NCBI RefSeq assembly: GCF_009768975.1
Contig: NZ_CP035733.1
Coordinates: forward strand, 1,612,001-1,676,000
Length of the DNA: 64,000 bases
Origin: Sphingorhabdus lacus
Lineage (GTDB): Bacteria; Pseudomonadota; Alphaproteobacteria; Sphingomonadales; Sphingomonadaceae
Direction of reading: 5' to 3'
Below, in pieces: positions 1-8,696 of this stretch. The notes beneath the pieces were generated by a model. The model was not told the origin of the DNA. It did not search any database and saw only the letters and a list, made by a program, of their open reading frames with translations. Within the stretch, counting starts at the first letter, position 1, and each line of letters begins with the position of its first letter. The position numbers and the translations under genes are program-made.

Positions 1-689
1 CCGGTACGTGTATCTTCTTTCCGGTTGCCGCGCGTACTAAGATAATAACCCATCGCCGGATTGAGGGTCACATCCTCAAGCAATTTACGGAAATTTCCAA
101 AGGCGTTGGAGTTCAGTTGATCCCAGAAAAAGGCAATTGCCTGTGCGCGCCAACTGAAGTCCAGTCCCGTCAGCGACACGACAAAAAACTCGGACAGCGC
201 CAACGCGACGCGTTTGCGGACGCCGTTTGCGTCGGACATGAGCTGGTTCCAGATCATGTAGTCGCCGGGATATTCATTATCGAAGAAATTGTCGGCGGTA
301 ACCTGATCATAGCCGCGCGACGCCAGCCATGCCACACCGGTCTGGTTGATCGGTGCATCCATCTGGGCGTTTAGCCAGGGTTCGTAGCCGATTGATTTGA
401 TGTTGCTGATCTCCGCCTCGCTGACGGATAGGCTGGATTTCAGAATGAACCGTGATGCTTGGGCGTCGGTGGACGGTTTTGGAACTTGTGCTGTCGGCGG
501 AGGGGTTGTGGACGAACCACCTCCCGCGCCACCGCCGCCGCACGCCGCCACCAGCAATGATGCCGCAGGCAGCGCATATACATAGGGTGAAGTCTGTGCC
601 GGAACCTCGGCCAACGCCGGAACAACATCGTCCGGCATTTCAATTTCTGACGCCCCCTCAAGGCAAATCTGATGCAGTGCTTCCTTCAT
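1..689 (-). CDS. DUF1800 family protein (3' end outside window)
   Basis: This is the first 229 codons of a reading frame that leaves the left edge without a stop. After a hydrophilic N-terminus comes a hydrophobic stretch ending in VAAC (Cys50), then a Gly/Ser/Pro/Thr linker, then sequence typical of DUF1800 proteins (SRFILKSS, MIWNQLM, RKRVALALSEFFVVS). The ATG is preceded by a GGCGGGAT purine tract. DUF1800 proteins are large, usually exported and of unknown function, often encoded next to a DUF1501 gene; that neighbour would lie outside the window. The gene is divergent from the virB operon, with a 195 bp gap. The family call is from recall of the sequence pattern. Confidence 0.78.
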   Translation of the reverse strand, partial: MKEALHQICLEGASEIEMPDDVVPALAEVPAQTSPYVYALPAASLLVAACGGGGAGGGSSTTPPPTAQVPKPSTDAQASRFILKSSLSVSEAEISNIKSIGYEPWLNAQMDAPINQTGVAWLASRGYDQVTADNFFDNEYPGDYMIWNQLMSDANGVRKRVALALSEFFVVSLTGLDFSWRAQAIAFFWDQLNSNAFGNFRKLLEDVTLNPAMGYYLSTRGNRKEDTRT

Positions 690-884
690 ATCCCGCCCTC
701 GCCAAATTGACGAAAGCGAGACCCGAAAATGCCGGACCCGGTTTCGTCATTAACGGTCTGCTATGGGACATTGCTCAAGAGATAGTTTCGGGAGGTGGTA
801 AATCCCCGTTAAGCGTGTTTTTTCGACGATATGGATTAGTAAATATAAACCATTTATCAACCTGTGGCATCTACCCCTTTTGCC

Positions 885-1496
885 ATGGTCATAAGTCGCA
901 TCCTTCCTACGGTTTTCGTACTTTGCGGAGCCTTGGCAACACCCCATGCCGCCCGAGCCGAAGTGTTCGAGCTGGCGAGCAATGGCAATTTTGTTCAAAT
1001 TTCGCGCCCGGCATGGACGCCTGAACCGGCGTTGGTGCCCGATTATGTGGGCGCAGAAATCGTCGCACCGACCCAAATGCCGTCGCCGCCCACGGGAACC
1101 GTACGCCAGCATATCCAGCATGCCGCCGCCAAATATGGCATCAGCAGCGATCTGGTCGACGCGGTCGCGTGGCAGGAATCACGCTATAACCCACGCGCCC
1201 GGTCCTCCGCCGGGGCAATTGGCGTGATGCAGTTGATGCCCGGTACTGCGCGTACGCTGGGCGTAACCAACCCACATGACGTCCGCCAGAATGTCGCAGG
1301 TGGTACAGCCTATCTCCGTCAGCAGCTTGAACGCTTTGGCAATAACGTTCCCCTCGCCCTCGCCGCCTATAATGCGGGACCGGGCGCGGTGATGAAATAT
1401 GGCGGGATACCGCCCTATCGCGAAACGCAGAATTATGTCCGCCAGATCATGCGCAGGCTGTCTGCCATTTCGCTCCAGCGTAACTCCTATGAATGA
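885..1496 (+). CDS. virB1: VirB1-like lytic transglycosylase
   Basis: A 203-residue periplasmic peptidoglycan lytic transglycosylase of the SLT/VirB1 type, expected to open the wall locally for the secretion machine. Residues 1-25 form a signal peptide ending ARA. The SLT domain carries the catalytic Glu98 in WQESRY, followed by GVMQLMPGTA and ALAAYNAGPGAV, the three hallmark blocks. I chose the ATG at 885 because it gives a clean signal peptide; an in-frame GTG at 864 is possible, and neither has a strong ribosome binding site. It is the first gene of the virB operon, 7 bp before virB2. Confidence 0.88.
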   Translation: MVISRILPTVFVLCGALATPHAARAEVFELASNGNFVQISRPAWTPEPALVPDYVGAEIVAPTQMPSPPTGTVRQHIQHAAAKYGISSDLVDAVAWQESRYNPRARSSAGAIGVMQLMPGTARTLGVTNPHDVRQNVAGGTAYLRQQLERFGNNVPLALAAYNAGPGAVMKYGGIPPYRETQNYVRQIMRRLSAISLQRNSYE

Positions 1497-1503
1497 GGCC
1501 AGC

Positions 1504-1827
1504 ATGTCGATGACGAAGTTCAAAGCAAAATTTTCCGCACTAGCCGCATTGACCGCTGCCTTACCCCAAGCGGCACTGGCGCAAACCGCCGTCGCCGATC
1601 CGCAAGGATCAGGCCCTATCGTCAATGCCCTGAACTGGATGCAAGGCACTCTGTTGGGCAATGTGGCAACTACAGCAGCCGTCATCGCGGTCGCTGTTGT
1701 CGGCATGATGATGCTGACTGGCCGGATGAACTGGCGCTTTGGCACAACGGTCATCGTGGGTTGCTTCGTCCTGTTCGGGGCGACTGCCATTGTTTCGGGG
1801 ATCCGTGTCGCCGCAATCGGGGGCTAA
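1504..1827 (+). CDS. virB2: VirB2/TrbC family pilin subunit
   Basis: A 107-residue protein with the VirB2 layout: a long signal peptide ending in AALAQ, a short periplasmic segment, then two hydrophobic helices (TTAAVIAVAVVGMMML and TTVIVGCFVLFGATAI) separated by a short basic loop with GRMNWR. VirB2 proteins are the major pilin of type IV secretion systems. The ATG at 1504 follows an ATGAGG purine tract by a few bases; an in-frame ATG at 1489 overlaps the virB1 stop and is less likely. The position right after virB1 and 3 bp before virB3 supports the call. Confidence 0.87.
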   Translation: MSMTKFKAKFSALAALTAALPQAALAQTAVADPQGSGPIVNALNWMQGTLLGNVATTAAVIAVAVVGMMMLTGRMNWRFGTTVIVGCFVLFGATAIVSGIRVAAIGG

Positions 1828-1830
1828 TCA

Positions 1831-2115
1831 ATGACTCCGCTAAACCGCACGCCTGTTTTTCGCGCTCTGACCCAGCCGCAGATGTTTGCGGGCGTGACCT
1901 ATAGCTATTTCATCATCAACCTGATCGTGACGACGGAAATCTTCCTCATCAGCGGGTCCTTTTGGGCGATACCCGCCGCCGTCCTGATCCACGCCATCGG
2001 CTACATGGCCTGTTTGCGCGAACCCCGCATCTTTGACCTCTGGATTACCAAGGTCAGCCGTTGCGGCCGGACGCGTACGCACGATCTGTGGCGCTGCAAC
2101 AGCTATCGGCCCTAA
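1831..2115 (+). CDS. virB3: VirB3 family inner-membrane protein
   Basis: A 94-residue protein starting MTPLNRTPVFRALTQPQMFAGV, the conserved VirB3/TrbD N-terminus, followed by two closely spaced membrane segments and a basic C-terminal tail (LWITKVSRCGRTRTHD). VirB3 is a small inner-membrane component that works with VirB4 in pilus assembly. It lies 3 bp after virB2 and 3 bp before virB4, the universal order in VirB-type clusters. Confidence 0.9.
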   Translation: MTPLNRTPVFRALTQPQMFAGVTYSYFIINLIVTTEIFLISGSFWAIPAAVLIHAIGYMACLREPRIFDLWITKVSRCGRTRTHDLWRCNSYRP

Positions 2116-2118
2116 CCT

Positions 2119-4545
2119 ATGAAGCTATCTTCGCAAAAACTTGCCAAGTTGGACCCGCGCGCCGGGGACCGTTTGCCCTATGCCGGCCATGTCAATGACC
2201 ATACATTGGCCACCCGCAATGGCGAGCTGATCCAGATGATCCAGATCGACGGTATCGCGTTTGAAACCGCCGATAGCGAAACACTGAACCACATGGCCGC
2301 CGTGCGCGATGTCGTGATGCGCGGCATCGCCAATTCCAATTTGATGCTCTATTGCCATGTCATCCGGCGCCGTGTGGCCGCCGAATTGACGACGCCCCAG
2401 CCCGAGGGCTTTGCCCGCGACCTCGACGCTGCATGGCAGGAGCGGTTGCGCGGCAAACAGCTTTATATCAACGACATCATTCTGATGCTGGTCCGCCGAC
2501 CCGCCCGTGGCAAGGTCGGCTTTGTCGAACGGCTAACCAAATGGGGTAGCGGCAAGCGCTCGCCGGAAGAGAAGCTTGCCGAACAGGCCCGCGAACTGCG
2601 CGAACTGGACAGCGCACGCACCAATCTTCTGTCCGCACTCAGCCGCTATGGCCCGCGCGTTCTGGAACGCTATCAGGGTGCGAGCGGCATCTGTTCCGAA
2701 CCTCTCGAAATTTTGTCGGCATTGTACAATAGCGAAATGCAGCCGTTGCTAGAACCCACGGGCGATGCCGGACAGTATCTGCCTTATAAGCGCATCAGCT
2801 TTGGCCTTGATGCGCTGCATCTGAAGGGATCAAGTGCGGAGACATCGCGCTTTGGCGCAATCGTGTCGATCAAGGACTATCCCGCCACGACCAGCCCGGG
2901 CATGCTCGACAATTTGCTGCGCCTGCCGCACGAACTGACGCTGACCGAAAGCTTTGCCTTTGTGGACCGGCAGATTGCCGACGAACGGATCGGATTGGCG
3001 TTGCGCCGTTTGCGGGCGGCGTCCGATGAAACCACCACTTTGCGGCAGGGTCTGCTGGGTGCAAAAGATGAGCTGACCGGTGGTGCAGCCGCCTATGGCG
3101 AGCATCATTTAAGCGTCCATGTCCGCGCCGGCAGCCTGCCCGCGCTCGACGCCGCGGTTGCCGATGTGCAGGCATCGCTCGCCGACATTGGTGCGGTATC
3201 GGTGCGCGAAGATCTCAATCTGGAAAGCGCCTTCTGGGGCCAGTTTCCGGGCAATGCAGAATTCATCGCCCGCAAGGCGCTCGTTTCGACCGCCAATCTG
3301 TCGGGGCTGATCTCCCTGCATGGATTTCCTATCGGCGCACCAGCAGGCGGGCCATGGGGAGAGCCGATTACCGTGCTCGAAACCACATCAAGCACGCCCT
3401 ATTTCTTTAATTTGCACAGCGGCGATCTGGGCAACTTCACACTGATCGGTCCATCGGGATCGGGTAAGACGGTGGTGCTGAATTTCCTGATTGCCCAGTC
3501 GCAAAAGTTCAATCCGCGCACTTTCTTCTTCGACAAGGACCGGGGTGCGGAAATCTTCATTCGCTCTATTGGCGGCCATTATGATGTGCTGCGTCCGGGC
3601 AAGCCGACGGGTTTCAATCCGCTGCAACTGCCAAGCAACGCTGCCAACCAGGCGTTTTTGCGGCAATGGTTGTCGCAGATGCTGACGCCGATGGGCGGTC
3701 AGCTGACCGCCGATGAAAATGCGATCATTGCCAGCGCGGTCGAGGCCAATTTTGACCAGCCGATGGAGCACCGCCAGTTGCGCTACCTCGTTGAGCTTCT
3801 CGCCGGTGGCGCACGCCCTGTGCGTGGCGACCTCGCGTCGCGGCTTGCGCCTTGGTATGGTGCAGGCGAGCATGCGTGGCTGTTCGACAATGTACGGGAC
3901 GAGCTGAACCTTGATACCCGTACCGCCGGTTTCGACATGACATCGCTGCTCGACAATCCCGTGCTGCGGACCCCGGCGATGATGTATCTGTTCCACCGCG
4001 TGGACGAACGTCTGGACGGCACACCTTCGATGATCGTTATCGACGAAGGATGGAAGGCGTTGGACGATGAAATCTTTGTGCACCGCCTGAAAGACTGGAT
4101 GAAGACAATCCGGAAACGCAACGGCGTGGTCGGATTTGCAACCCAGAGCGCGAGCGATGCTATCGAAAGCAAGATCGCCGCGACCATCATCGAACAATCG
4201 GCCACGCAATTGTTCATGAGCAATCCCAAGGCGCAAGCCTCGGACTATTGCGACGGTTTCGGATTGACCGAACATGAGCTTGATCTCGTCCGCTCGCTGC
4301 CCGAACATTTGCGCTGCGTGCTGGTCAAGCAAAGCGGCAACAGCGTTGTTGCCCGCCTCGATATGGGTGACATGCCCGATGCGATGACCGTCCTGTCCGG
4401 CCGCGAAAGCAGCGTCCGCAAATTGGACGAACTGCGCGATGCCCATGGTGATGCGCCGTCTGACTGGATGCCGCAATTGTTGCAGGCCGCCGAAGAAGGC
4501 CCGTCGGCCTTGTGGCAAAACACCAAGACAGGAACGCGCGGCTGA
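2119..4545 (+). CDS. virB4: VirB4 family secretion ATPase
   Basis: An 808-residue ATPase that powers pilus assembly and substrate transfer at the inner membrane. The N-terminal half matches the CagE/TrbE/VirB domain. The C-terminal half is a RecA-like motor with Walker A GPSGSGKT at 444-451 and Walker B MIVIDEG at about 638-644. Length is normal for VirB4. The stop codon overlaps the virB6 start (TGATG), so the two are likely translationally coupled and no virB5 lies between them. Confidence 0.95.
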   Translation: MKLSSQKLAKLDPRAGDRLPYAGHVNDHTLATRNGELIQMIQIDGIAFETADSETLNHMAAVRDVVMRGIANSNLMLYCHVIRRRVAAELTTPQPEGFARDLDAAWQERLRGKQLYINDIILMLVRRPARGKVGFVERLTKWGSGKRSPEEKLAEQARELRELDSARTNLLSALSRYGPRVLERYQGASGICSEPLEILSALYNSEMQPLLEPTGDAGQYLPYKRISFGLDALHLKGSSAETSRFGAIVSIKDYPATTSPGMLDNLLRLPHELTLTESFAFVDRQIADERIGLALRRLRAASDETTTLRQGLLGAKDELTGGAAAYGEHHLSVHVRAGSLPALDAAVADVQASLADIGAVSVREDLNLESAFWGQFPGNAEFIARKALVSTANLSGLISLHGFPIGAPAGGPWGEPITVLETTSSTPYFFNLHSGDLGNFTLIGPSGSGKTVVLNFLIAQSQKFNPRTFFFDKDRGAEIFIRSIGGHYDVLRPGKPTGFNPLQLPSNAANQAFLRQWLSQMLTPMGGQLTADENAIIASAVEANFDQPMEHRQLRYLVELLAGGARPVRGDLASRLAPWYGAGEHAWLFDNVRDELNLDTRTAGFDMTSLLDNPVLRTPAMMYLFHRVDERLDGTPSMIVIDEGWKALDDEIFVHRLKDWMKTIRKRNGVVGFATQSASDAIESKIAATIIEQSATQLFMSNPKAQASDYCDGFGLTEHELDLVRSLPEHLRCVLVKQSGNSVVARLDMGDMPDAMTVLSGRESSVRKLDELRDAHGDAPSDWMPQLLQAAEEGPSALWQNTKTGTRG

Positions 4546-5792
4546 TGGCGAAATGCGCTGCCATAAACGCCACAGCAGGTTCGGCTGAAACCATGGTCAA
4601 CACCGTGGATTGCTACATGCAGTCGACGGTTCAGGCCGGTTACGCCAATTTGCTCGGCCCCGGTAGCGTGTTCGGCTATGCGCTGACAATCGCGCTTACC
4701 ATTTACGTCGCGATCGTCGGCTACCGCCTGATCTTCGGCCGTTCCTCGCTCAGCATGGGCGAAATGGCGCCGCGGATGCTGTTGATCGGCGCGGTGCTCG
4801 CGCTGACCAGCAATTGGGCAACCTACCAGATACTTGTCTACGATGTGCTCACCGACGGCCCGCAGGAAATTGTCAGCGCCGTCAATCCGTCCGCCGGACA
4901 GAGCAGCAGCGTCAACCAGCGCGTGGATATGCTGTCCGGGCGGATGGTCGATCTTGCCGATGCCTGGACCGAATTTGACGCACGCCCCGAAAATGCCGCG
5001 CCCGACGCCGCCATGCCGACCGAGGATAAGGACGAGGCCGAAGCGCTTCCCCCGACCGCAACGGGGATTACCGCGATCGTCGCGCCCAAGGATTCGCTCG
5101 GCCCCAATATGCTGATGCTCAGTGCGCTGTTGCTGGTGCTCGCTTCGGCAGGCGTGCTGGTGGTGGCGAAGATTATATTAGGGCTTCTCCTTCTTCTCGG
5201 ACCGCTCTTTGCGGTACTGGGGCTGTTCTCGGTGACACGCGGCCTAACGCTCGGCTGGGCGCGCGCCGCGGTTTTGATGGCGCTGGTCCCTGTCATGGCC
5301 ATCATGACGACCGCCGGATCGACCGCGTTGATCGAGCCTGTCTTGGCCGACATGTATGTCTCGGCAAGTCAGGGCGTCTTCTCGCTTCGCGCTGCGCTGA
5401 CGATCCTGGTGATCGTGCTGATCACGGTGGCGGTGGCGGTGCAGTTGTTCCGCATCGGCCGCACCATCGTCAGCGGATGGACCCTGTCCCTGCGTTCGAA
5501 TAGCACCGCAGATACTGTGCAGTCGCAAGGCGCACAGACCATCGCGACGGCTTCTGCGCCTGCCATGATCTACAATGAACGCATGCAGAGCATGGTCAGC
5601 GCCATCGAGCGGACCGCAAGCGTCACCGCAACCGACAGCGTTGCAAACCAGCGCGCCATCCTTTTGCCACATCGGGTAGAAACCGAAGGCCGCGCGCAAA
5701 GGGCGACCGAAATGAAAGCTGACCGCCGCATCACCCGAGGACGCGTCACCGCCGTCCGTGCCCCCATTAAAGCCGTCAGGAACGCCGCATGA
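4545..5792 (+). CDS. virB6: VirB6/TrbL family polytopic membrane protein
   Basis: A 415-residue protein with hydrophobic segments near 45-65, 85-105, 205-245, 255-280 and 295-320, a large periplasmic loop between the second and third, and a basic cytoplasmic tail. This is the VirB6 topology; VirB6 forms part of the inner-membrane translocation channel. Near the third segment, ILGLLLLLGPLFAVLGLF resembles the most conserved VirB6 region. The start is the ATG inside TGATG at the virB4 stop; the end overlaps virB9 by 4 bp. No virB7-type small lipoprotein gene or virB8 fits in this junction. Confidence 0.88.
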   Translation: MAKCAAINATAGSAETMVNTVDCYMQSTVQAGYANLLGPGSVFGYALTIALTIYVAIVGYRLIFGRSSLSMGEMAPRMLLIGAVLALTSNWATYQILVYDVLTDGPQEIVSAVNPSAGQSSSVNQRVDMLSGRMVDLADAWTEFDARPENAAPDAAMPTEDKDEAEALPPTATGITAIVAPKDSLGPNMLMLSALLLVLASAGVLVVAKIILGLLLLLGPLFAVLGLFSVTRGLTLGWARAAVLMALVPVMAIMTTAGSTALIEPVLADMYVSASQGVFSLRAALTILVIVLITVAVAVQLFRIGRTIVSGWTLSLRSNSTADTVQSQGAQTIATASAPAMIYNERMQSMVSAIERTASVTATDSVANQRAILLPHRVETEGRAQRATEMKADRRITRGRVTAVRAPIKAVRNAA

Positions 5793-6601
5793 CCGCCAAA
5801 TATCTCGCCCTGCTGTTCGCCAGCTTACCCCTTGCAACACCCGTATTGGCCCAGACGACGGAATCCGTGAAGGTCGCGCCCAATATCCGCTATGTCCATT
5901 ACGACCCCAATAGCGTGGTCCGCCTGACCGGACATACCGGCTATCAGATGACGCTGGAATTCGACGTGGGCGAACGGATCGAAACGGTCGGCCTTGGCGA
6001 TTCTTCCGGCTGGCAGGTGACGCCCAACGGGTCGGGCACCGTCATGTTCCTGAAGCCTGTGGGCATTCCGCGCACGACCAACATGTCGATCATTACGAAC
6101 ATGCGCCGCTATAATCTTGAGCTGGTCGCAAAATCCGGTCTGAAGGTCGCGCCGAGCCAGGTTACCTATGCCGTGCGGTTCACTTATCCGCAAAAGCCGG
6201 TGGACGAAGCCGCCAACGCCGCCGCCCCGCCGATCATCGCGACACCCCCTGAATTGTGGAACCGCGCCTACAGCTATGATGGCGCAAAGGCCAATGTGCC
6301 CGATCAGGTCTTTGACGACGGCAAAGCCACCTATTTCCGCTTCGCTGCGGGCGCGGCTACCCCCGCCATTTTCAGCATCACCCCCGATGCGGGCGAAAGC
6401 ATCGTCAACTTTGCGGTGCGCGGCCCCTATGTGGTGGTCGAACAGATCGCCCCGCAATTCGTCCTGCGGCACGGCAAGGAAGTGACCATCATTTTCAACG
6501 ATGCCTACGCCGCACCAACCCCCGGCGCGGATGCTCCGCGTGAACGGGCCAAAAAGAAGTGCGGCCTGTTCGGCTGCAAATCACGGGAGGCAAAACCATG
6601 A
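5789..6601 (+). CDS. virB9: VirB9/TrbG/CagX family outer core protein
   Basis: A 270-residue periplasmic protein with a signal peptide ending in VLAQ. VirB9 hallmarks are present: an N-terminal beta domain with IRYVHYDPNSVV and a C-terminal domain with ATYFRFA and VVEQIAPQFVLRHG. VirB9 forms the outer-membrane core complex with VirB7 and VirB10. The last residues are basic and carry two cysteines (KKKCGLFGCKS), which is interesting because no VirB7 partner is visible. It overlaps both virB6 and virB10 by 4 bp. Confidence 0.92.
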   Translation: MTAKYLALLFASLPLATPVLAQTTESVKVAPNIRYVHYDPNSVVRLTGHTGYQMTLEFDVGERIETVGLGDSSGWQVTPNGSGTVMFLKPVGIPRTTNMSIITNMRRYNLELVAKSGLKVAPSQVTYAVRFTYPQKPVDEAANAAAPPIIATPPELWNRAYSYDGAKANVPDQVFDDGKATYFRFAAGAATPAIFSITPDAGESIVNFAVRGPYVVVEQIAPQFVLRHGKEVTIIFNDAYAAPTPGADAPRERAKKKCGLFGCKSREAKP

Positions 6602-7704
6602 GTGTTCTGAAACCCGAAGGGACCGATCCCCGCACCTCAATGGAGCCGGGCGCGCTGGAAGATGCCAATGCGCCGGTCTTGTCGCCGGTTGCCATGCCGG
6701 CCGGATTGTCGCCCGGTATGAAGCTCGGCTTTGTAGGTATCGGCCTGCTCGGTATCCTCACCTTCACGACCCTGGCCTCCAGCCGGGGTGACGCAACACA
6801 AGCAGGCGCCAATCCGGCCCTGCCCGTGACGGCCAGTGTCATGCCGGTAGGCGGCGTGGTTCCCAAGCCTGTTCTGCTTCCCGGCCCGCCCGAGCTGCCG
6901 CCCCCCACGCTGATCCCGCCGCCACTGGACGTAACGGCTCCGGTCATGGGCGTTGTTGCGTCGCAGGTCCCGGGTGCCAACCGCCTGATGTCGCCGGGCG
7001 TCGTCGTCGATCTGACCAAGGGCGGCGCGGCTGCCCTACCGCCGACACCGGGACTGGCGGGCGTAAAGAATGACGACCTCAGCGCCGACGACAAATTCGC
7101 CGACCGCGTCGCTGCCGCAGAAAATGCGCCAGCGCGCGCAGTCCGCATTTCCAACAGCAGCTATACCGTGCCGCAGGGCGCAATCATCGCCGGTGTTCTG
7201 GAAACCGCCATCAACTCCGACCTTCCGGGCTATGTGCGCGCGGTGGTCAGCCGCGATGTCATGGGCTTTGACGGACGCCGGGTGCTGATCCCCAGTGGCA
7301 GCCGCCTGATCGGCCAATATCGTTCTGGCCTCGCAGCGGGTCAATCGCGCGCCTTCATTGTCTGGACTCGTCTGACTCGCCCGGACGGCGTCACCGTATC
7401 GCTGGGCTCGCCCGTCACGGACCCGCTGGGCCGCGCCGGTCTTGGCGGCAAGGTGGACAGCCATTTCCTCAAACGCTTCGGTTCGGCCATTCTGCTCTCG
7501 GTCGTGCAATCCGGCCTCGGTCTGTTGCAGCGCGGCGGCAATGATGTCGTCGTGCGCACCGCGGATGATGCGAAAAGCGTCGCCGGTATCGCATTACAGC
7601 GCGACATCAGCATCCCGCCCACGGTCAAAGTGGCCCAAGGCACCGCGATCCGCATTTTCATTGCCCGCGATCTCGATTTCTCCGGCACGGACGGCGGTTC
7701 GTAA
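6598..7704 (+). CDS. virB10: VirB10/TrbI family core protein
   Basis: A 368-residue VirB10 protein: a cytoplasmic N-terminus, one membrane helix at about 41-63, a proline-rich periplasmic linker (roughly 90-130, several PPP/PPT runs), then the C-terminal TrbI barrel domain with the VPQGAIIAGVLETAINSDLPG and LIPSGSRLIGQY blocks. VirB10 spans both membranes and links inner-membrane energy to the outer pore. The ATG at 6598 follows GGGAGG and overlaps the virB9 stop; the stop overlaps the virB11 start (TAATG). Confidence 0.94.
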   Translation: MSVLKPEGTDPRTSMEPGALEDANAPVLSPVAMPAGLSPGMKLGFVGIGLLGILTFTTLASSRGDATQAGANPALPVTASVMPVGGVVPKPVLLPGPPELPPPTLIPPPLDVTAPVMGVVASQVPGANRLMSPGVVVDLTKGGAAALPPTPGLAGVKNDDLSADDKFADRVAAAENAPARAVRISNSSYTVPQGAIIAGVLETAINSDLPGYVRAVVSRDVMGFDGRRVLIPSGSRLIGQYRSGLAAGQSRAFIVWTRLTRPDGVTVSLGSPVTDPLGRAGLGGKVDSHFLKRFGSAILLSVVQSGLGLLQRGGNDVVVRTADDAKSVAGIALQRDISIPPTVKVAQGTAIRIFIARDLDFSGTDGGS

Positions 7705-8696
7705 TGAACATGATGACCCCGCTTTCGGGGAGTGGCGGCAATGTCTACCTCAACAGCTACCTCGCGCCTTTTGAGGCGTGGCTGGCGGCGGACGATGTCA
7801 CCGAGATTTTGGTCAACCAACCGCACGAAGTCTGGGTCGAGCGCATGGGCGCGGACGAGATGGAGTGCCATGACGCGCCCGCCATTGATGCGCAGCTGCT
7901 CGAACGTCTTGCGCAACAGGTGGCACGGATAAGCCATCAGGGCATCAACCGCGAAAGCCCCCTTTTGGCGGCCATCCTGCCGGGCGGCGCGCGTATCCAG
8001 ATTGTCCTGCCACCCGCCACACGCGGATCGGTCGCCATAGCGATCCGCAAACATGTGCTGCATGATATGACCGTAGACGGATATCTGGCGCAATGCCGCA
8101 CGGGTTCGCTGAACGCAGCGAAATCCGAACTGTCTTTATCGGCGTTGCTCGAAAAAGGCGATGTATCCACCTTCCTGAAAAAGGCGGTGGCCATGCGCAA
8201 AACCATATTGCTGTCGGGCGGAACGTCGTCGGGGAAAACCACCCTCCTCAACGCCCTGCTGAAGGAAATCCCGCAAAACGAGCGTGTCATCGCCATCGAA
8301 GACACCCCCGAGATCAAGCTCGGCCGCAACAATTCCATCGGCCTCGTCGCGGTATCGGGCGATCAGGGCGAAGCGCGGGTAACCATCGAAGAACTGATGC
8401 GCGCATCCTTGCGCATGCGTCCGGACCGGTTGATCGTAGGCGAGCTACGAGGTGCCGAAACAGTCACTTTCCTGCGCGCCATAAACACTGGCCATCCCGG
8501 CTCGATCAGCACCATCCATGCGAGCACAACGGAAGGCGCGTTCGAACAACTGGCGCTGATGTGCATGCAGGCCGACCTCGGCCTCGGCCGCAACGAGACA
8601 ATTGATTATGCACGGTCCATGATCGACATCATCGTGCAGCTCGACCGGAAGAACGGGCAACGTTCCATCGCGGATATCCAGTTCAAGGGCGATTGA
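7704..8696 (+). CDS. virB11: VirB11 family hexameric secretion ATPase
   Basis: A 330-residue traffic ATPase. The N-terminal domain carries EILVNQPHEVWVE; the motor domain has Walker A GGTSSGKT at 172-179, the Asp box IAIEDTPEI, Walker B with LRMRPDRLIVGELRG, and the His box TGHPGSISTIHA. VirB11 switches the machine between pilus building and transfer. It is the last gene of the operon; the next feature is the opposing tRNA-Arg gene 27 bp away. No virD4 coupling ATPase follows. Confidence 0.95.
   Translation: MNMMTPLSGSGGNVYLNSYLAPFEAWLAADDVTEILVNQPHEVWVERMGADEMECHDAPAIDAQLLERLAQQVARISHQGINRESPLLAAILPGGARIQIVLPPATRGSVAIAIRKHVLHDMTVDGYLAQCRTGSLNAAKSELSLSALLEKGDVSTFLKKAVAMRKTILLSGGTSSGKTTLLNALLKEIPQNERVIAIEDTPEIKLGRNNSIGLVAVSGDQGEARVTIEELMRASLRMRPDRLIVGELRGAETVTFLRAINTGHPGSISTIHASTTEGAFEQLALMCMQADLGLGRNETIDYARSMIDIIVQLDRKNGQRSIADIQFKGD

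Follow-up and report, generated by a model that had tools for sequence, protein, structure and literature searches.

A reduced VirB machine without VirB8 beside a DUF1800-DUF1501 gene pair in Sphingorhabdus lacus: a possible two-step exporter

Introduction

The chromosome of Sphingorhabdus lacus carries a ten-gene unit that consists of a reduced P-type VirB machine and a divergently oriented DUF1800-DUF1501 gene pair. It lies at the start of the stretch analysed here (the window; 64,000 nucleotides, G000:C1:1612001-1676000 of the complete, one-contig 3.46-Mb genome). The eight genes of the type IV secretion system (T4SS), virB1-2-3-4-6-9-10-11, are all intact and closely coupled to one another, and purifying selection acts on them; the operon encodes a conserved machine and is no remnant. 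By analogy with the Ptl system of Bordetella pertussis, we consider, at a probability of roughly 0.4, that this machine is a two-step, VirD4-free exporter, which would move neighbouring proteins already exported by the general secretory (Sec) or twin-arginine translocation (Tat) pathway from the periplasm to the surface, like Ptl minus VirB8.

The virB operon and its conservation

The eight open reading frames (ORFs) occupy positions 864-8696 on the forward strand, and each exceeded its Pfam cut-off in a profile search of the window. The operon starts with virB1, which encodes a lytic transglycosylase (SLT; 885..1496; PF01464, 4.4e-29; ORF from 864, start inferred), followed by the pilin gene virB2 (TrbC/VirB2; 1504..1827; PF04956, 8.2e-18; ORF from 1399, start inferred), virB3 (1831..2115; PF05101, 3e-27) and the ATPase gene virB4 (CagE_TrbE_VirB; 2119..4545; TIGR00929, 742.8 bits). 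These are followed by virB6 (TrbL/VirB6; 4545..5792; PF04610, 1.6e-27; ORF from 4512, start inferred), virB9 (CagX; 5789..6601; PF03524, 2e-53), virB10 (TrbI; 6598..7704; PF03743, 9.5e-55; ORF from 6559, start inferred) and a second ATPase gene, virB11 (T2SSE; 7704..8696; TIGR02788, 339.7 bits, above cut-off). With NCBIfam models, VirB4 (743 bits), VirB10 (226) and VirB11 (340) scored above cut-off, and VirB9 (198 bits) and VirB3 (69) slightly under it. The presence of VirB4, VirB3, VirB6, VirB9, VirB10 and VirB11 in one operon identifies the system as P-type (VirB/MPF_T). With starts inferred from sequence, virB6 and virB9 overlap by four bases and virB10 and virB11 by one; assuming internal starts at 6598 and 4545, the overlaps are four bases for virB9/virB10 and one for virB4/virB6. 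In the divergent intergenic region between the DUF1800 gene and virB1 (690..884), promoter-like matches were not above those of shuffled sequences.

Ratios of non-synonymous to synonymous substitution (dN/dS) were computed by the Nei-Gojobori method with an in-house script. The longest ORF of each gene was used, so that overlapping 5' ends are counted in. Against Sphingorhabdus contaminans (L034), they were 0.10 for virB1, 0.12 for virB2, 0 for virB3, 0.03 for virB4, 0.06 for virB6, 0.07 for virB9, and 0.04 for both virB10 and virB11. Other pairs of close Sphingorhabdus loci gave values below 0.2 wherever dS was computable (three values were not), with dS saturated in several; against the distant locus L041, dN/dS was 0.08-0.28. 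The nearest named relatives are S. profundilacus and S. contaminans, with VirB4 identities of 99% and 97%, respectively. Across 11 VirB4 sequences, one position of the Walker A motif GPSGSGKT is conserved at 90% and the others are invariant, as is the IxIDE motif.

A preliminary description of this stretch had proposed an intact, tightly joined virB1-2-3-4-6-9-10-11 operon without VirB5, VirB8 and VirD4, kept by selection as a specialised machine. Gene order, integrity and junctions are confirmed by the Pfam and NCBIfam matches and the sequence, and the three components are indeed missing from the operon; selection is borne out by dN/dS against S. contaminans, which ranges from 0 to 0.12 across the operon, and a search of related genomes found the same reduced arrangement conserved in many genera. 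Selection, the genome-wide absence of VirB8 (see below) and this conservation argue for a specialised machine. The extent of the unit was described correctly for the eight virB genes, but the divergent DUF1800/DUF1501 neighbours had been overlooked; the genome also holds a second reduced operon.

This second virB1-2-3-4-6-9-10-11 operon (G000:C1:2865539-2873411; L031:8539-16411) encodes a VirB4 that is 54% identical to that of the window. It adjoins a cluster for polysaccharide biosynthesis and export, and similar surroundings are seen in G016, G019 and G022.

Missing components and repeated change of VirB8

VirB8 (PF04335) has no match anywhere in the complete genome; the same search worked elsewhere, with matches in 38 of 119 genomes. 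Profile comparison detected no VirB8-like domain fused into the other components, and virB6 adjoins both virB4 and virB9, with no gene in either junction. The proposal that unrelated proteins take the place of missing parts is therefore not supported. For the pilus-tip protein VirB5 (PF07996), the only match in the genome is a fragment that scores 17.1 bits, below the cut-off of 24.7, and lies in a frame of 561 amino acids. The outer-membrane lipoprotein VirB7, which is bound to VirB9, finds no space within the operon, and is too short for a genome-wide search.

Neither a coupling protein nor a relaxase is encoded near the virB operon. The possibility, raised previously, of VirB8 and VirD4 homologues elsewhere in the genome is thus realised in part: VirB8 has none, but a TrwC-type relaxase and a TrwB-type coupling protein are encoded about 346 kb from the operon (G000:C1:1966580-1971896; L187), and do not form a standard set. 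No mating-pair gene was noticed among the long ORFs of 8 kb at that site, which is perhaps a mobilisable element.

The loci compared comprise chosen matches from a VirB4 search of 119 genomes and the best 80 of 583 relatives. Those with VirB4, VirB6 and VirB9 number 106, 65 without VirB8 and 41 with it; once identical copies are removed, 99 loci remain (58 and 41). Counted from the last sense codon, the virB6-virB9 gap is -7 to +32 bp in 58/58 loci without VirB8, 51 of them at -1 (a four-base stop/start overlap), against 697-1043 bp in 41/41 VirB8-containing loci. VirB8 has been cleanly lost from, or inserted at, this junction. On a VirB4 tree of the 99 loci (built by a rapid method, with some long branches and with only L078 as root), the VirB8 state changes at least four times, all four changes being forced by well-supported branches; the mean for shuffled states is 31.6.

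At the level of whole genomes, 36 of the 119 encode a VirB4 at least 50% identical to that of the window, and 23 of these 36 have no PF04335 match. Neither PF04335 nor PF02534, by which alone the coupling protein was judged, is found in 17 of the 36; completeness is at least 90% in 13 of these 17 genomes and 84-88% in four. VirB8 occurs elsewhere in the genome in 15 of the 18 genomes of named loci; the other three, Caulobacter sp. Root655 (G125), Marinicaulis (G130) and S. contaminans (G132), have no VirB8 genome-wide.

Seven VirB8-containing sister operons (L059, L064, L141, L142, L145, L154 and L156) have a second virB2-like gene after virB11. L156 is an operon of alphaproteobacterial type on a contig labelled as a Verrucomicrobiaceae metagenome-assembled genome, perhaps by binning error or transfer.

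The DUF1800-DUF1501 pair

Upstream of virB1, on the reverse strand, lies a DUF1800 gene of the long type (PF08811), of which the window contains the 5' part (3..689, the first 229 codons); the rest extends beyond the left edge, as far as about G000:C1:1610860. Its product has a lipobox-like Cys followed by a Gly-rich segment. Beyond it, outside the window and on the same strand, a DUF1501 gene encodes a protein with a Tat motif (L032:11418-12848; PF07394). No neighbour family is commoner than DUF1800 and DUF1501, each of which occurs at 27 loci among the 99 loci and L032 (window and L032 counted as one). At 28 of 77 scorable loci the operon is flanked by the pair or by one of its two genes; these are 24 of the 50 loci that lack VirB8 and 4 of the 27 that have it. 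Loci were scorable if pair or half was present, or else if both sides had 3 kb of flank, and setting aside 22 short-flank loci without a match raises this share.

Four geometries occur: divergent upstream (Sphingorhabdus), same-strand upstream (L041), same-strand downstream of virB11 (Caulobacter, Parvularculaceae, Phycosocius and relatives, and L049) and convergent downstream (L110, L155). On the tree, presence of the pair changes label five times, and the pair is found in separate clades. Within Sphingorhabdus, a long DUF1800 shares a contig with VirB4, or with a piece of VirB4, in 17/17 genomes with this VirB4 clade; the sole other clearly long DUF1800 in the genus is a relative of 1058 amino acids in G013.

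Comparison by blastn of ten Sphingorhabdus loci with the unit showed that the window and L034 have both flanks in common, and L033 shares the left flank; none of the other seven has a flank of more than about 250 bp in common with any other, which gives at least eight neighbourhoods, several of the right flanks measuring only 0.6-1.4 kb because contigs end there. About 250 bp of left flank beyond DUF1501 are common to L035, L037 and L039, in otherwise different neighbourhoods, and may mark the edge of the unit. The distances of VirB4 and DUF1800 are correlated over 27 loci (Mantel r 0.89, 0/2000 permutations), as shared ancestry alone could also produce.

Export signals and other neighbouring genes

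The signals of DUF1800 and DUF1501 proteins were read by eye. A lipobox-like Cys that ends a hydrophobic stretch, and is mostly followed by Gly-rich sequence, is present in 26 of 27 T4SS-adjacent DUF1800 proteins. Cys50 and Gly52 are invariant in 22 aligned DUF1800 sequences (13 from T4SS loci, 9 database homologues of unknown context), and the twin arginine (RR) is kept in 12/12 aligned DUF1501 sequences. Among short DUF1800 proteins encoded away from VirB4, a lipobox-like site was found in none of the 19 recovered from 20 stretches, and 18 have no visible signal.

Other lipoprotein-like proteins adjoin related operons. A dioxygenase-like one is encoded at eight loci, all without VirB8 (Pfam checked in three). 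Three mutually related proteins of this kind, one with a marginal Pectate_lyase_4 match, adjoin the second operon of the S. lacus genome. Nine loci in two groups (L107, L109, L112 and L116; L047, L069 and L072-L074) encode a Gly/Pro-rich lipoprotein, homologous across both groups and without a Pfam match in the three tested, beside a TonB-dependent receptor (Pfam-checked in L112, the rest assigned by clustering). Around operons without VirB8, 32 of 96 genes within 700 bp are lipobox-positive, and 26 of these have Gly-rich tails; beyond 3 kb, 16 of 217 are positive and 2 of these have such tails. Around VirB8-containing operons, the counts are 6 of 63 and 9 of 149. These figures, for genes of at least 100 amino acids in related loci and by a home-made rule, are an indication rather than a test.

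Two further gene types recur at these loci. In L045, L047, L069, L072, L073 and L074, a same-strand gene just before virB1 encodes a small tetratricopeptide-repeat-like protein (107-124 amino acids). In L042, L045, L069, L071, L073 and L074, the operon is followed by genes for polyphosphate kinase and an exopolyphosphatase-like protein (Pfam checked in L042).

Possible function of the machine

In principle, periplasmic substrates can be moved by a VirB machine without VirD4; examples are pertussis Ptl and, in part, the Brucella VirB system, and two-step export without VirD4 is established for Ptl (PMC12857230). According to a model given there, a pilus-like piston drives the periplasmic substrate through the outer-membrane complex. 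As this model fits the parts kept here (VirB2, VirB4, VirB11, VirB9 and VirB10), a two-step exporter of lipoprotein and Tat neighbours is ranked first, a pilus second and structural lipoproteins third.

In such an exporter, DUF1501 would cross the inner membrane by Tat, via its twin-arginine signal; DUF1800 would cross it too, and would be lipid-anchored on its Gly-rich tether. Both putative substrates would then be carried from the periplasm to the surface through a VirB9/VirB10 outer-membrane channel, pushed by a short VirB2 pseudopilus that VirB4 and VirB11 may power. As no substrate would be cytoplasmic, VirD4 would not be needed, and VirB8 may have become dispensable more than once in this lineage. 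Ptl is alike in lacking VirD4 and VirB5 and in its VirB9/VirB10 core, and encodes its cognate exported proteins beside the machine; those neighbours are a toxin, whereas here they are lipoprotein-like and Tat proteins. Ptl also has a VirB8 homologue, which is missing here. A further difference is that Ptl has VirB7 (PMC12857230), whereas no virB7 fits here. More tentatively, a T4SS lineage in Sphingomonadales and Caulobacterales might have been converted to export only surface lipoproteins and Tat substrates, without VirB5, VirB7, VirB8 and VirD4; it would be among the smallest VirB machines of diderm bacteria, with interchangeable adjacent cargo genes, and would give lipoproteins a new path to the surface.

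Several observations weigh against an exporter of these neighbours. In four genomes, five long pairs of DUF1800 and DUF1501 (L179-L183), four with a lipobox-like site and one with a Sec-like start, are not accompanied by a VirB gene within the stretch examined, which reaches contig ends in L182 and L183, and the pair is therefore not dependent on this machine everywhere. It also lies beside bacterial chitin synthases, where a Tat motif has been noted for DUF1501 (PMC5122149), and thus exists outside a T4SS context; the account of the pair given there mentions no T4SS. The pair is absent from 26 of the 50 scorable loci without VirB8, and the flanks of 8 of 21 loci listed contain no lipoprotein. 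The operon-adjacent DUF1800 of L049 has no lipobox-like site, the N-region of the window's own DUF1800 is unusually long, acidic and untypical, and one short DUF1800 away from any T4SS (L173) has a Sec-like start. The lipobox rule was loosened after a first look because its first version missed the window's DUF1800, and the loci in these tests are related.

An adhesive pilus or pseudopilus machine like Bartonella Trw, which no longer moves substrates and whose neighbouring surface proteins aid attachment or envelope chemistry, is less likely, at perhaps one chance in four. The VirB2 pilin, VirB1, VirB4 and VirB11 are all retained under selection, and the second operon of the genome adjoins polysaccharide genes. 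The VirD4-less Trw, likewise a VirB set without a coupling protein, is proposed to form pili (PMC12857230); it has several VirB2 and VirB5 copies, whereas there is one VirB2 and no VirB5 here. VirB8, missing here, has a part in pilus assembly in Agrobacterium (PMC2653234). The pilus-tip protein is missing too, and a pilus would leave the Tat and lipoprotein-like neighbours unexplained.

It is improbable that the neighbouring lipoproteins are structural, replacing VirB7 (and perhaps VirB5) and anchoring VirB9/VirB10 in the outer membrane. The lack of space for virB7, whose product is such a VirB9-bound lipoprotein, would suit this role, as would the enrichment of lipobox-positive genes within 700 bp and the parallel divergence of DUF1800 and VirB4, from which relatedness was not removed. 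However, the neighbours are unrelated between clades (DUF1800, dioxygenase-like, marginally pectate-lyase-like), some loci have no lipoprotein at all, and DUF1800 pairs occur without an adjacent T4SS.

Slightly less probable still is a machine for DNA uptake or release, like Helicobacter pylori ComB or that of the gonococcal genetic island. A gene about 1 kb downstream, which we take to be comF, would suit uptake; this neighbour is not conserved, with a tblastn match in L034 only among L031-L050. ComB retains VirB4 and is likewise without VirD4 and VirB5, but it has VirB7 and VirB8 and no VirB11 (PMC12857230), whereas here VirB8 is missing and VirB11 retained, the reverse set.

Hitch-hiking of the pair and the operon on one transferred island, without joint work, is quite unlikely: the unit is found at many sites in Sphingorhabdus and each half occurs elsewhere without the other, but the link recurs in four geometries and in separate clades, and in Caulobacter the pair stands on the same strand directly downstream of virB11. 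Although that relaxase and coupling protein exist, a conjugation machine that mobilises the distant TrwC/TrwB element with parts borrowed in trans is very improbable: VirB8 has no match in the genome and VirB5 none above threshold; of the 36 genomes that encode this type of VirB4, 17 lack both PF02534 and PF04335 matches; and three genomes (G025, G031, G044) have similar weak PF02534 matches yet no VirB4 match.

Relation to earlier reports and significance

The preliminary description put the system forward as a candidate undescribed one, which is only partly right. A table footnote in Persson et al. (2009), 'Lacks VirB8', refers to the T4SS of Erythrobacter litoralis HTCC2594 and Erythrobacter sp. 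NAP1, although, according to the methods of that paper, positive genomes had the full set of seven core genes (PMC2702493). These are alphaproteobacterial VirB operons without VirB8 and probably belong to this lineage; neighbours, phylogeny and function are not discussed in the parts of that paper that concern them. A 2016 comparison of 14 Erythrobacter genomes noted that a first T4SS copy had coevolved with the genomes; in five strains, it placed a T4SS together with a TonB-dependent transporter upstream of the photosynthesis cluster (PMC4919336). The section on VirD4-less systems in PMC12857230 covers Ptl, Brucella VirB, ComB and Bartonella Trw, with no mention of VirB8 loss. Our literature search found no report of recurrent VirB8 loss or of DUF1800/DUF1501 beside a T4SS.

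VirB8 is regarded as a core scaffold of T4SSs, and its repeated changes, with the rest of the machine under selection, amount to a natural experiment on its role. If the neighbours are cargo, the lineage would offer a type IV route for lipoproteins to the surface, open to study in environmental bacteria that can be cultured, and DUF1800 and DUF1501 would be placed in a functional context.

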